A stretch of 64,000 nucleotides of DNA from an uncultured Alphaproteobacteria bacterium. GTDB taxonomy: Bacteria > Pseudomonadota > Alphaproteobacteria > UBA6615. Below are positions 5,771 through 54,183 of the stretch, piece after piece. Position 1 is the first letter of the stretch, and every line of letters begins with the position of its first letter. The notes below the pieces were generated by a model, which was not told the DNA's origin, ran no database searches, and saw only the letters and a list, made by a program, of their open reading frames with translations. The position numbers and the translations under genes are program-made. The stretch lies in NCBI GenBank assembly GCA_943787745.1, contig CALSNJ010000004.1:62001-126000 (forward strand). Direction: 5' to 3'.

Positions 5771-6652
5771 ATGGGCGCACTCGACGGCAGGAAAATCGGA
5801 TTCATCGGTCTCGGCCTGATGGGCCGCCCCATGGCGCGCAACCTGCACAAGGCCGGCGCGACCATGATGATCACGAGTCGCAGCCCCGGTCCGGCAGAAG
5901 AGCTGGCCAGCGAAGGCATGACGGCACTGGCCACACCGCGTGAGGTGACAGATGCCTGTGACATCACGATCCTGATGGTCACAGACACCAGCGCCGTGGA
6001 CAAGGTTTTGCACGGACCCGACGGTGTTATCGCCGGACTTTCACCGGGCAAGTACGTCATCGACATGAGCACCACCAAGGTACGCGAAACCCGGGCATGG
6101 GCCGAAGAGGTCAAAGCCACCGGCGCGCATTACATCGACGCACCGGTCTCGGGCGGAACTCCCGGAGCTGAAGCCGGCAATCTGACCATCCTGATAGGTG
6201 CTGACGAAGCTTCGCTGCCCGGCGCCATGCCGGTCTTCGACGTGCTGGGTGAAAACATCACCCATATCGGCGACATTGGCGCCGGACAGGTCACCAAGAC
6301 CGCCAATCAGGCGATCGTGGGTATGACCCTCGCGGCAGTCGCCGAGGGGCTAACTCTCGCCGCCCGTGCCGGTGTGGACCCGGGAAAGGTCCGGACCGCA
6401 TTGCTCGGCGGATTTGCCGAATCCCGCGTGCTTGACCTGCACGGCGGGCGGATGGTCGACCGTGCTTTCGAACCGGGCGGACGGGCCTCGGTTCACCACA
6501 AGGACATTCTTCAGGCGCTTGAGCTGGCCGAACAGGTCGACCTTGATCTGGTCTCGACCAAAACCAACCTGAAACTCTGGCAAAAGATGCTCGATCGCGG
6601 CTGGCAGGATCTCGATCAGGCCGGAATCATTCGCGCGGTCGAAGAGGACTGA
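5771..6652 (+). CDS. NAD(P)-dependent beta-hydroxyacid dehydrogenase (3-hydroxyisobutyrate / tartronate semialdehyde reductase family)
   Basis: This enzyme of 293 residues oxidises a short 3-hydroxyacid or reduces its semialdehyde with NAD(P). The N-terminal Rossmann domain has GFIGLGLMGRPMARNL near residue 9, and the substrate-binding consensus DAPVSGGTPGAEAGNLTI is present near residue 120. The catalytic Lys lies in GAGQVTKTANQ near residue 175. An all-helical C-terminal dimerisation domain follows. These three signatures place it with GarR, MmsB and GLYR-type enzymes, but they do not settle the substrate. It sits 8 bp behind the TerB-like gene and ends just before the bidirectional terminator. 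Confidence 0.85.
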   Translation: MGALDGRKIGFIGLGLMGRPMARNLHKAGATMMITSRSPGPAEELASEGMTALATPREVTDACDITILMVTDTSAVDKVLHGPDGVIAGLSPGKYVIDMSTTKVRETRAWAEEVKATGAHYIDAPVSGGTPGAEAGNLTILIGADEASLPGAMPVFDVLGENITHIGDIGAGQVTKTANQAIVGMTLAAVAEGLTLAARAGVDPGKVRTALLGGFAESRVLDLHGGRMVDRAFEPGGRASVHHKDILQALELAEQVDLDLVSTKTNLKLWQKMLDRGWQDLDQAGIIRAVEED

Positions 6653-6700: not shown

Positions 6701-6729
6701 AAAAAGGGCCGCACAAGTGTGCGGCCCTT
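6701..6729 (-). terminator. Rho-independent terminator of groESL
   Basis: A 10-bp perfect stem (GGGCCGCACA at 6706-6715, TGTGCGGCCC at 6718-6727) with a 2-base loop is flanked by five A on the left. On the minus strand this gives a GC-rich hairpin followed by TTTTT, 26 bases after the groEL stop. The shorter TT on the plus side may also stop transcription from the dehydrogenase gene. Confidence 0.88.
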
Positions 6730-6754: not shown

Positions 6755-8437
<1,683 letters not shown>

Positions 8438-17150: not shown

Positions 17151-18173
17151 ATGAATGTCCAAAGCCCCCCCGAAAAACTGACCGCACGCGACTACGCGAC
17201 CGATCAGGAAGTTCGCTGGTGCCCCGGTTGTGGCGACTATGCCATCCTGAAGGCCGTGCAAAACACGCTGGCCGAACTGCAGGCGGACCCGAAGAACACC
17301 GTTTTCGTGTCCGGTATCGGCTGCGCCGCGCGCTTCCCCTATTACATGGAAACCTATGGCTTCCACACCATCCACGGCCGCTCACCGGCGGTTGCGACAG
17401 GTGTGAAGCTCTCCAACCCGGACCTCGATGTCTGGGTTGTGGGTGGCGACGGCGACATGCTGTCCATCGGTGGCAACCACACGATGCATGCCATCCGGCG
17501 CAATGTTGATGTTCAGCTTCTGCTGTTCAACAACCAGATTTATGGACTGACCAAAGGGCAATATTCACCGACCTCAAAGATCGGCACGAAATCACCTTCG
17601 ACGCCACTGGGATCCATCGACAACCCGGTATCCGCAGCACAATTTGCGCTCGGCGTTGGCGGCACCTTTATCGCCCGTTCGACCGACATCATGCAGAAAC
17701 ACCTTTCGGGTGTTCTCAAGCGCGCCCATGGCCACCGCGGCACGTCCTTCGTGGAAATCTTCCAGAACTGCATTGTCTACAATGACGGTGTCTTCAAGCG
17801 CTTCACCGAGAAGAGCGTGCAGGCCGAAATGCAAATCCATGTTGAGCACGGCCAACCGCTCCTGTTCGGCAAGGACAAGGACAAGGGCCTGATCCTGAAC
17901 AAGGATGAGATGCGGCTCGAAGCCGTCACCCTGGGCGAGAACGGCATTACCGAAGCCGATATTGCTGTCCACGACGAGACCAATCGCTCACTGGCCACCA
18001 TGCTGGCCCAGATGGACCCGCCGACCATGCCAGTGGCTCTCGGTGTGCTCTATTGCGAAGCCGCACCCACTTACGAAGCATCCGTCCACGCGCAGATTGA
18101 CCACGCCCGTAAGGATGGTGAAGGTGATCTCGCCAAACTGCTCCATCGCGGCCAAACCTGGACTGTCGAGTAA
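17151..18173 (+). CDS. korB: 2-oxoacid:ferredoxin oxidoreductase beta subunit
   Basis: KorB binds thiamine diphosphate and one 4Fe-4S cluster. The 340-residue protein has Cys 24 and 27 in WCPGCGDY, Cys 58 in SGIGCAARF and Cys 207 in FQNCIVYND, the four cluster ligands of the family. The ThDP site is GDGDMLSIGGNHTMHAIRRN followed by LLFNNQIYGLTKGQ. The ATG at 17151 follows the korA TAA by one base; an upstream in-frame ATG at 17115 lies inside korA and is unlikely. There is no extra ferredoxin domain, so electrons go to a separate ferredoxin. Confidence 0.94.
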   Translation: MNVQSPPEKLTARDYATDQEVRWCPGCGDYAILKAVQNTLAELQADPKNTVFVSGIGCAARFPYYMETYGFHTIHGRSPAVATGVKLSNPDLDVWVVGGDGDMLSIGGNHTMHAIRRNVDVQLLLFNNQIYGLTKGQYSPTSKIGTKSPSTPLGSIDNPVSAAQFALGVGGTFIARSTDIMQKHLSGVLKRAHGHRGTSFVEIFQNCIVYNDGVFKRFTEKSVQAEMQIHVEHGQPLLFGKDKDKGLILNKDEMRLEAVTLGENGITEADIAVHDETNRSLATMLAQMDPPTMPVALGVLYCEAAPTYEASVHAQIDHARKDGEGDLAKLLHRGQTWTVE

Positions 18174-18235
18174 GCCGACCATTCTCCGGCGAACGTGCCT
18201 GCGACCGAGTGGCGCGCCGCCTTGCGAAAATTGTC

Positions 18236-18272
18236 TGCGGGTTCCACATTTCGATTGAAACTGGAACCCGCA
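18236..18272 (+). promoter_or_regulatory. Stem-loop covering the ctaA ribosome-binding region
   Basis: An 11-bp perfect inverted repeat (TGCGGGTTCCA at 18236-18246, TGGAACCCGCA at 18262-18272) with a 15-base loop ends two bases before the ctaA ATG. The only ribosome-site-like bases (TGGAA) lie in the 3' arm, so the folded RNA would hide them. There is no T-run to make it a simple korB terminator. Confidence 0.6.
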
Positions 18273-18273
18273 C

Positions 18274-19347
18274 ATGACTGCCACAACGGCCAACCCACCC
18301 AATCCTGATATCCCCGCACCGCGCGCAAACCGTGCAATCGCGATCTGGCTGTTCGCCTGCGCTGCCATGGTCTTTGCCATGGTTGTAATCGGCGGCATCA
18401 CCCGGCTTACAGGATCCGGGCTTTCCATGGTCGAATGGCGGCCGGTCTATGGCTTTCTCCCCCCGCTTTCTGCCGAGGCATGGCAGCGGGTCTTCGACCT
18501 GTATCGCGCAACGCCCCAATATCTGGAAATCAATGCTGGAATGACCGTTGAGGCATTTCGCGGCATCTTCTGGTGGGAGTATTTTCATCGCCTCTGGGGC
18601 CGGATCATCGGGCTGGTTTTTTTCCTGCCCTTCCTCTGGTTTCTGATCCGCGGGCGCATTCGCGGCATGTTGGCGTTGAAGCTGTTTGGTATTTTCCTGC
18701 TGGGTGGTGCCCAGGGAGCGCTGGGCTGGTACATGGTCAAAAGCGGGCTTGTTGATATTCCCGAGGTCAGCCAGTACCGCCTCGCGGCGCATTTCTTCAT
18801 GGCCTTCCTGATCTACGGGCTGCTGATCTGGACCGCACTTTCACTACTCTACCCCGAGCGAAATGCGATCGGCGATGCCCGCCATCACCGGATAAGACAA
18901 CTCGCCATTGCTGCGCTGGCCCTTGTGGCCATCACCGTTGTCTCGGGCGCGTTTGTCGCTGGCACGGATGCGGGTTTCATCTTCAACACCTTTCCGTTGA
19001 TGGACGGCAGGATTATCCCACCCGGCTATTTCGAAGACCTCTGGGCATCCTTCGAGGACCTGGCGACAATCCAGTTCAACCATCGCGTTCTGGCGCTGGT
19101 CACATTCGCAACTGTGATTTGCGTCTGGTGGCAAAGCCGTTGGCTGGCCTTGATCCCGCGTGCACGCCGGGCCGCAAATGTGCTGTTCATTGCCGCGGTC
19201 GGGCAGGTGGCGATTGGCATCACCACGCTGCTTATGGTCGTCCCGGTCTATATGGGCGCCACCCATCAGGCCGGCGCCTTGGTCCTCTTCACGGCCACCA
19301 TCTGGTTTGTCTTCGAACTCCGCCCGCCTTCACGACAAGCTCACTAA
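18274..19347 (+). CDS. ctaA: Heme A synthase (CtaA/COX15)
   Basis: CtaA hydroxylates heme O to give heme A for aa3-type cytochrome oxidase, in the inner membrane. The 357-residue protein has eight hydrophobic helices and the family motifs: VVIGGITRLTGSGLSMVEWRPV (first helix end), FWWEYFHRLWGRIIG with a heme-contact His, FIFNTFPLMDG, and FNHRVLAL and GATHQAGALVLF with the second His pair. This is the proteobacterial/mitochondrial type 2 architecture. No ctaB/ctaC genes are adjacent. A stem-loop covers its ribosome site, and its TAA overlaps the photolyase stop. Confidence 0.96.
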   Translation: MTATTANPPNPDIPAPRANRAIAIWLFACAAMVFAMVVIGGITRLTGSGLSMVEWRPVYGFLPPLSAEAWQRVFDLYRATPQYLEINAGMTVEAFRGIFWWEYFHRLWGRIIGLVFFLPFLWFLIRGRIRGMLALKLFGIFLLGGAQGALGWYMVKSGLVDIPEVSQYRLAAHFFMAFLIYGLLIWTALSLLYPERNAIGDARHHRIRQLAIAALALVAITVVSGAFVAGTDAGFIFNTFPLMDGRIIPPGYFEDLWASFEDLATIQFNHRVLALVTFATVICVWWQSRWLALIPRARRAANVLFIAAVGQVAIGITTLLMVVPVYMGATHQAGALVLFTATIWFVFELRPPSRQAH

Positions 19348-32499: not shown

Positions 32500-32525
32500 A
32501 CGGTACGGAAATCGACCAAGCTTGG

Positions 32526-32601
32526 TTGTCATACGCGGACTTGAGCCGCGTATCTCGCCTCCACCCCAGCGAGATGCCAGGGTCAAGCCCGGGCATGACA
32601 A
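32526..32601. repeat. Intergenic palindromic repeat, family A
   Basis: This 76-bp imperfect palindrome begins TTGTCAT and ends ATGACAA, with inner arms GCGGACTTGAGCCGCG and CCAGGGTCAAGCCCGGGC. Similar elements are widespread between genes of alphaproteobacteria. It lies between the convergent ends of hisI and the hydrolase, where it may form an mRNA 3' structure. Confidence 0.72.
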
Positions 32602-32607
32602 TATCTC

Positions 32608-52847: not shown

Positions 52848-52859
52848 GCACAGAAAGCC

Positions 52860-52922
52860 TCATGCTGAGCTTGTCGAAGTATGGGGTGCGCCCTCCCCCT
52901 TCGTCAGGCTCAGGGTGAGGGC
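52860..52922. repeat. Intergenic palindromic repeat, family C
   Basis: This 63-bp imperfect palindrome has outer arms CCTCATGCTGAGCTTGTCGAAG and CTTCGTCAGGCTCAGGGTGAGG pairing with four mismatches. The 'GAGCTTGTCGAAG' type is very common between genes in proteobacteria. It separates the convergent GGT and cytosine-deaminase-like genes. Confidence 0.75.
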
Positions 52923-52947
52923 TTTGAAGAACAGGCGCTGACTTAAG

Positions 52948-54183
52948 CTAGGGTCGGTTCAGTTCGGGACGGTCCCAACGGAAGGTGCGACGCCCGGCCT
53001 TGAAGCCATGCAGCGGCTGCGCGTTGATCGCGACGGCTTCATCAGGTGATGAAGCGCCCCAGATCACGAGGTCCGCGGAGCTTCCGACAGACAAGCCATT
53101 GTCCTCACGCCCAATCAGACGCCCGGGCATGGTTGTGACCATTGCGAAGGTCTCCAATAATTCTTCCGTCGTCCCGCGCTGCAAAACATTGGCGTACATA
53201 TTGGCAATCCGCATCAGCGACCCATCGCCGAACGGCGTGAACGGGTTGAGGATATTGTTGGTCGAGAGGCAGCAATTCACACCGTGCGAGACCAGCGCAT
53301 TGGCATCCGCAACACCGCGCATCACCGAATGATCCTGATGACGGCCGACCGTAAACAAATCGGTCGCTGGCAGGACGGTCACCGTCACACCACTATCGGC
53401 CAGCAGCTTGCCGAGGTCTTTCAGCTTGGCCGGCGGCATGCTCGCATATTTGGAGCCATGACCCACGGCCACGCGTCCACCCCAACCGTATTTATCGGCG
53501 AGTTCGCAGACCTGATAAATGTCGAGATGATCGTGGTTGGGTCCCACATCGAGATGGATATCGACATCGACGTCATATTCGTTGGCAAGTTCAAAAATGC
53601 GCGCGATCTGACCTGGACCATTCTCGTCGTAGCTCGGTGCGCCACCGATGGCTTTCGCGCCGCGCTCCAGACCTTCAACGAGATTGGCATCTCCCTCGGG
53701 AACACCCGTCCAGCCTTCCTGAAGGAAGACACAAAGATCGAGATCAATGCCCCAGGCATAATCCTTGGCGAGTTGCTCGAGTGCATCGAAACTCTTCATA
53801 CCCACATTGGGATCAAGCTCCACATGGGTGCGCATATGGGTTACGCCTGCCACAAGCGAGGTTTCCAGAGACGCCTGCGCGCGCTGGTAGACATCCTCAA
53901 CCGTAAAGCTGGGCTTTACAGCCGCGACGCGCTTCATATGGTCGGTGCCACGATCAGGTGACGGCTCGGAACGGTCGAGAATGCGTGACTTGTCGAGATG
54001 GATATGGGTTTCGATCAGTCCGGCGGAGACAAGACAGCCGCCCGCGTCAACGCTTTCACCTTCATCAGCGAGCCCGGTGCCAATGGCCGCGATCTTGCCA
54101 TCCGAAACACCAATATCCTGAAGCGGCGCGCCCTTGGGAACGCTCGCGAGCTGTGCGTTTCGCACGATCAGATCAAAACTCAT
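52948..54183 (-). CDS. Cytosine-deaminase-like amidohydrolase
   Basis: This metal-dependent amidohydrolase of 411 residues has the N-terminal beta-sandwich (FDLIVRNAQLASVPKG) and the HxH metal motif LIETHIHLDKSRI near residue 60. A second His lies in HVDIHLDVGPNHD-like DVDIHLDVGPNHDHLD and VAVGHGSKYAS supplies the third. SADLVIWGASSPDEAV is the C-terminal sandwich. The LDKS signature is that of cytosine deaminase-like enzymes. AGGGGAG precedes the ATG. Together with the M20 hydrolase and GGT it may act on cyclic amides or amidines. Confidence 0.87.
   Translation of the reverse strand: MSFDLIVRNAQLASVPKGAPLQDIGVSDGKIAAIGTGLADEGESVDAGGCLVSAGLIETHIHLDKSRILDRSEPSPDRGTDHMKRVAAVKPSFTVEDVYQRAQASLETSLVAGVTHMRTHVELDPNVGMKSFDALEQLAKDYAWGIDLDLCVFLQEGWTGVPEGDANLVEGLERGAKAIGGAPSYDENGPGQIARIFELANEYDVDVDIHLDVGPNHDHLDIYQVCELADKYGWGGRVAVGHGSKYASMPPAKLKDLGKLLADSGVTVTVLPATDLFTVGRHQDHSVMRGVADANALVSHGVNCCLSTNNILNPFTPFGDGSLMRIANMYANVLQRGTTEELLETFAMVTTMPGRLIGREDNGLSVGSSADLVIWGASSPDEAVAINAQPLHGFKAGRRTFRWDRPELNRP

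Follow-up and report, generated by a model that had tools for sequence, protein, structure and literature searches.

A hairpin superposed on the predicted ctaA promoter as a candidate read-through insulator in an alphaproteobacterial lineage

Introduction

The transposase genes of IS10 and IS50 have their own promoters, and structure formed in read-through RNA blocks their translation. Such mobile elements guard in this way against outside promoters, whereas ctaA and korB, the genes considered here, are a housekeeping pair.

The closest described systems are found in phage T4. According to the account in PMC3014915, the long early RNAs of gene e hide the ribosome-binding site (RBS), whereas the RNAs from the late promoter lack the 5' strand of the hairpin and are well translated. 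The ctaA locus resembles the RBS hairpins of gene e and of I-TevI (td intron), in which the promoter sits at the hairpin's 5' strand and the short RNA is translated (PMC3014915). The T4 systems have a phage late promoter and mapped RNA ends, while ctaA is a chromosomal gene for respiratory assembly with a predicted sigma-70-like promoter, known from its sequence alone.

A second term of comparison is given by the promoters of the RegB/RegA systems (PrrBA, ActSR, RegSR). The RegA-type sites are called degenerate (PMC5506826, PMC4263372). The consensus sequences are printed as SSGNVRDNHYSNCSS for RegA and GNGRCRTTNNGNCGC for RegR (PMC5506826), a table of RegR boxes is given in PMC4064962 and a RegA/PrrA consensus in PMC5435760. 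PMC5506826 also states that searching RegA-bound promoters for a motif was unsuccessful and describes, for Acidithiobacillus ferrooxidans, an EMSA of RegA with the cta operon, whose first gene is ctaA, with binding reported for the upstream regions studied. The ctaA locus shares with these promoters a half-site box upstream of the -35 element of a cytochrome oxidase assembly gene, as well as the regulator pair in the genome. On the other hand, the bases between the ctaA half-sites fit the published consensus in part only, and the site is a predicted one.

The window analysed is a stretch of 64,000 nucleotides from an uncultured alphaproteobacterium. The best reading of the hairpin before its ctaA gene, at slightly better than even confidence, is that it may insulate against read-through in the manner of T4 gene e and lie over a redox-controlled ctaA promoter.

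Materials and Methods

The protein search covered 60 genomes, including that of the window, and placed ctaA in 50 of them. The family of the window comprises 24 genomes, of which 22 carry ctaA, and two (G005 and G016) gave no ctaA match. The comparison was made on 20 family loci; L021 and L025, where the promoter pattern is incomplete (in L025 the box is imperfect), were excluded, as were the non-family loci L022, L023 and L026-L031 and another 20 of the genomes that carry ctaA. The start codons of the relatives were set by a scripted rule, and the box of L024 was placed by eye. The 17-bp promoter spacing was first seen by eye and afterwards tested over spacings of 8-29. As a composition control for RBS masking, only the sequence upstream of the predicted transcription start was shuffled (200 shuffles). 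The region upstream of the main cox2 gene was located by the length of the encoded protein.

Results

The hairpin is placed on the + strand directly before ctaA (18274-19347, +), which encodes a heme A synthase of the COX15-CtaA family (Pfam PF02628, E 2.3e-108; 307.4 bits against NCBIfam NF045570, below its cut-off of 550). The 5' arm (18236-18246, +) and the 3' arm (18262-18272, +), assigned by exact complementarity and predicted folding, are 11 nt long each and 100% complementary, so that the perfect 11-bp stem of the preliminary description is confirmed. Between the arms there is a loop of 15 nt, within which an inner TTTC/GAAA helix of four pairs is also predicted to form. The TGGAA bases that resemble a ribosome site lie within the stem, as had been described, and belong to its 3' arm. 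A single base (18273, C) separates the stem from the ctaA ATG at 18274. The segment 18230-18276 folds at -22.0 kcal/mol, with a z of -4.95 relative to shuffled sequences (0/200 as low) and of -5.77 in a second run (0/300).

A search of the 3.27-Mb genome for the exact pair of arms, separated by 5-30 bases and without mismatch, found a single copy, so that the hairpin is not part of an exact repeat family. For stems that are perfect over 10 bp or more and have loops of 3-20, the 64-kb window gives six listings, corresponding to four distinct places, among which the ctaA hairpin is the one with a long loop. Eight Markov-1 simulations gave 0 to 6 listings, so that a perfect stem of such length somewhere in 64 kb is unremarkable. 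The remarkable point is its placement, exactly between promoter and start codon, and not its mere existence.

Other structures were observed in the window. A perfect 11-bp stem with A/T flanks (6704-6729), similar to a bidirectional intrinsic terminator, is located between the convergent genes 5771-6652 (+) and 6755-8410 (-). A long imperfect palindrome at about 32500-32607, also between convergent genes, folds at about -43 kcal/mol on the - strand, and a palindromic repeat-like sequence with CTTCGACAAGCTCAGC and its partner is found at about 52858-52947, downstream of the gene 52948-54183 (-).

Comparison of the family indicates that the hairpin overlaps a promoter. A -35 element TTGCGA (18222-18227, +), whose TTG is invariant in 20/20 genomes at a fixed distance from an upstream box, is followed by a -10 element CACATT (18245-18250, +), the first two bases of which belong to the 5' arm of the hairpin. 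The pattern opens with a variant of the box TGCGACYGATRGGCGCG; after a constant gap of 5 come the TTG of the -35, 17 bp past the hexamer and the CAnnnT of the -10. It is complete in 20 of the 22 family genomes with ctaA, and these 20 represent seven genera. CAnnnT stands exactly 17 bp past the -35 in all 20, and at any other spacing from 8 to 29 in none. The genus-weighted information, in bits per column, is 1.60 for the box, 0.84 for the gap between box and -35, 1.20 for the -35 and 1.45 for the -10, against 0.38 for the spacer and 0.26 outside these parts. A conservation profile of this kind marks a promoter that has a regulator site directly upstream. The elements depart from the consensus (3/6 positions of the -10 match TATAAT and 4/6 of the -35 match TTGACA), and a standard sigma-70 consensus scan of the window did not list this ctaA promoter. 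In L019, a -10-like CAGACT is found 7 nt before the ctaA ATG and suggests a leaderless message.

From the position of the -10, transcription of ctaA is predicted to start at about 18257 (+ strand, about +/- 2), in the loop of the hairpin. With a -10 that overlaps the end of the 5' arm and a start predicted inside the loop, the RNA made from the ctaA promoter would lack the 5' arm and carry a leader of about 17 nt. Consequently, the hairpin would act only on RNA that enters from korB. The position of the predicted promoter relative to the arm (-10 at 18245-18250, arm at 18236-18246) corresponds to that of the T4 gene e type. The preliminary description had suggested that temperature, a protein or a heme-related signal might control the translation of ctaA through the hairpin, and had named a transcript start inside or after the stem as what would remove this idea. 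Such a start is what the comparative promoter evidence, with its 17-bp spacing kept in 20/20, predicts, and that form of control is not supported.

The upstream box TGCGACCGAGTGGCGCG (18200-18216, +), conserved in 20 genomes of seven genera at about 1.6 bits per column, fits the half-sites GNGRC-N5-GNCGC of RegA/PrrA/RegR. These half-sites are present without mismatch in 18/20 of the ctaA boxes and with one mismatch in the other 2/20; because the boxes were located by TGCGAC in 19/20, the free test is the second half-site and its spacing alone. Compared with the complete consensus sequences, the boxes show 0-2 mismatches to the 15-base RegA consensus of R. capsulatus (19/20 have 1-2) and 2-4 mismatches to that of RegR in all 20. 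Of the 13 regions in which korB is in tandem, four hold additional matches to the half-sites, counting both strands. A scan for the half-sites followed by TTG retrieved 19 places in the window's own genome versus 10 for the reversed pattern. A class-wide scan for an exact form of the box, to which the window's own box does not conform, retrieved 3/385 sampled genomes, two of them from the family; among the sampled genomes from elsewhere in the class this form is therefore rare. The only match outside the family lies in G281, contig 3, 658743-658759 (L133).

In the genome of the window, the RegA gene directly follows the RegB gene, as in a cognate two-component pair. The adjacent genes exceed the cut-offs of both NF033792 and NF033791, with 506 bits for the RegB kinase (cut-off 350) and 303.2 bits for the RegA regulator (cut-off 250). 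A RegA-type regulator over the cut-off is present in 19/24 family genomes; none over the cut-off was found in three genomes that bear the box (G013, G020 and G021, which are 97, 82 and 87% complete). The RegA/PrrA-like site upstream is a likelier control signal on ctaA itself than the hairpin.

A conserved TGCGACAWGGTGTCYC is found upstream of the main cox2 gene in 17/20 family loci (L159-L161, L163-L175 and L177, where L170 is the window genome), and its reverse strand fits GNGRC-N5-GNCGC. Taking the start that a cox2 protein of 293 residues would have, the box precedes it by about 100-210 bases; it falls outside what is likely to be coding sequence and keeps no constant reading frame. The remaining main cox2 loci have TGCGACGTTTGGCCGC (L176) or only looser forms of TGCGAC (L162 and L178). 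By eye, TGCGACAWGGTGTCYC is followed by TTGTTG and, about 17 bases further on, by a T/A-rich hexamer similar to TATTTT. The TGCGACAWGGTGTCYC region is probably the promoter of the main cytochrome oxidase with a RegA-type site. Its presence upstream of the main cox2 gene strengthens the redox part of the proposal; the overall confidence is limited by the insulation step. A second cox2-type gene diverges from ctaA in six relatives of three genera (L013, L014, L016, L017, L018 and L020), with a second box between the two genes that has 0-1 mismatch to the RegR consensus. In these six loci the gene order korB-ctaA is not kept, and the intergenic region holds two RegA-like boxes.

Upstream of ctaA in the window, korB (17151-18173, +) is placed in tandem and is a possible source of read-through. 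It encodes the beta subunit of a 2-oxoacid:ferredoxin oxidoreductase (TIGR02177 and Pfam TPP_enzyme_C; the TIGR02177 match has E 5.3e-77 and 259.1 bits, just under the cut-off of 261.9). Opening the ctaA RBS is predicted to cost 16.4 kcal/mol in the korB read-through RNA and 2.2 kcal/mol in the transcript predicted for the gene's own promoter; the RBS would thus be paired in the long RNA and free in the short one, as in T4 gene e. The earlier claim that the stem would mask the ribosome site is therefore upheld, and the masking recurs in relatives. The mean difference in opening cost is +6.02 in the 13 genomes with korB in tandem and +0.18 in the other seven, among which the largest value is +3.3 (L024). 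In all seven, the upstream gene is divergent (cox2 in six and, in one, a siroheme-synthase-like gene named by eye), and hence no read-through is expected.

Relative to the upstream shuffles, masking has a mean z of +2.84 in the 13 tandem genomes and of -0.32 in the seven divergent ones. The z is positive in 13/13 tandem genomes, and in 9/13 at most 11/200 shuffles reach the observed value; the window has a z of 7.60 (0/200). Masking is weak (z under 2) in 5/13 tandem genomes, namely L003, L005, L007, L012 and L019, and the divergent locus L024 has a z of +1.36 (21/200). For the predicted own transcripts of the tandem genomes, the degree of structure is unexceptional (mean z 0.37). Since the division into tandem and divergent loci coincides with phylogeny (g1, g4 and g5 versus g2, g3, g7 and g9), 13 versus 7 does not represent 20 independent events and the contrast is suggestive: predicted masking appears to accompany a korB in tandem, but not a divergent gene.

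A second and weaker hairpin is predicted around the box (18188-18221, +). Its z is only -0.85 in the window, and it is strong in several relatives, with a 14-bp stem in L007, for example. At the position of the reported hairpin, none was found in L019 and no significant stem in L003, L006, L007 and L012. In L019, korB is in tandem, yet neither hairpin is significant.

The preliminary description had proposed a comparison of relatives for conserved pairing with compensatory changes. For the reported stem, such covariation is weak in the window's genus: in set A3, 2/30 predicted pairs of both hairpins show a two-sided change, and the covariation term (+3.08) is unfavourable to the structure. In set A2, where both hairpins are pooled with other helices, 6/37 pairs show two-sided changes. 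In the test of the named structures, 24/500 shuffles reach the observed values; two two-sided compensatory changes, in one genus, fall in the box hairpin, and four pairs at the -10 are invariant and consequently uninformative.

Discussion

The proposed mechanism combines the promoter and the hairpin in the same stretch of DNA. The ctaA gene would be transcribed from its own promoter, probably under a RegB/RegA (PrrBA, ActSR) system acting through the box just before the -35. With the hairpin superposed on this promoter, the -10 starting in the 5' arm and transcription beginning in the loop, RNA from the own promoter would be devoid of the 5' arm and its ribosome site would stay open. On the other hand, read-through RNA from korAB would contain both arms and fold, hiding the SD-like bases beside the start codon. 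The hairpin would in this way insulate ctaA from korAB read-through, and the output of heme A synthase would track its own promoter, which probably responds to oxygen or redox state. We infer the ctaA start site, the binding of RegA, the existence of the read-through RNA and the lowering of translation by masking.

The main rival is a U-poor 3' end of korB. According to it, the hairpins form the end of the korB mRNA, either as a terminator poor in U or as a block to 3' exonucleases, and RBS masking is a by-product; we consider it unlikely, though deserving of real weight. In its favour, both hairpins are present where korB is in tandem and missing where the neighbour is divergent: the box hairpin has a mean z of -2.48 in the tandem genomes versus +0.45 in the divergent ones, and the RBS hairpin of -1.89 versus -0.17. 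The two compensatory changes in the box hairpin of one genus also speak for it. However, of the features of an intrinsic terminator the GC-rich stem is present and the U-tract is absent: no T-run occurs 3' of the stem (after 18272, + strand), as noted earlier in arguing against a plain korB terminator, whereas a stem with a T-run exists at 6704-6729 of the same window. A terminator scan, which allows loops of 3-8 only, did not list the ctaA hairpin. Inspection by eye of nine relatives in which korB was not seen beside ctaA (L197 left out) revealed no common counterpart or terminator after korB, and a terminator has no need to overlap an RBS.

A regulated leader is improbable; it would need a longer ctaA message whose 5' end precedes the stem, and a hairpin that yields to temperature, a protein or heme. 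The RBS-like bases are indeed paired in the long RNA. A thermometer or a heme riboswitch needs the 5' arm in the main message, and the conserved promoter, with its predicted start in the loop, argues against this. Moreover, the stems of RNA thermometers are usually imperfect, whereas the perfect GC-rich 11-bp stem, at -22 kcal/mol, seems too stable for one. The arm sequences and loop sizes vary between genera, unlike those of a ligand-binding element, and a search of the whole window with Rfam at the gathering score returned 0 matches to known riboswitch or RNA thermometer families.

It is very improbable that the inverted repeat over the -10 and the start acts at the DNA level as a repressor site. 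The repeat straddles the -10 and the predicted start, and an inverted repeat is found there in several relatives, but the spacing and sequence of the arms differ between species, where an operator would be expected to hold its spacing, and the repeat is not evident in the genomes with divergent neighbours despite the same promoter. A functionless chance stem over an ordinary promoter can be given no more credence, for although a 64-kb stretch is expected to contain a few perfect stems of this length and L003 and L006, of the same genus, have no strong stem, masking exceeds the shuffled mean in 13/13 tandem genomes, clearly so in nine, with differing arm sequences.

The proposed insulating hairpin over the ctaA promoter may have a wider significance. 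Tentatively, and with somewhat less than even confidence, the locus may be a chromosomal and conserved device of the T4 gene e type in an alphaproteobacterial lineage, in which the DNA of box and promoter doubles as RNA hairpins that would silence the translation of read-through RNA where the neighbour is in tandem and are absent where it is divergent; this may be a general means of insulating tightly packed genes that are separately controlled. No description of a hairpin nested with the ctaA promoter was recognised in the titles and abstract beginnings of open-licence papers. If the reading is true, it would offer a cheap and testable rule for insulating neighbour genes without a terminator, with a single stretch of DNA serving as promoter and as RBS-blocking hairpin. 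It also carries a warning, since hairpins seen before genes in sequence only may be absent from the main message of the gene. For the lineage concerned, which is known largely from metagenome assemblies, it would tie the synthesis of heme A, together with the genes of the main cytochrome oxidase, to a redox system of the RegB/RegA type.
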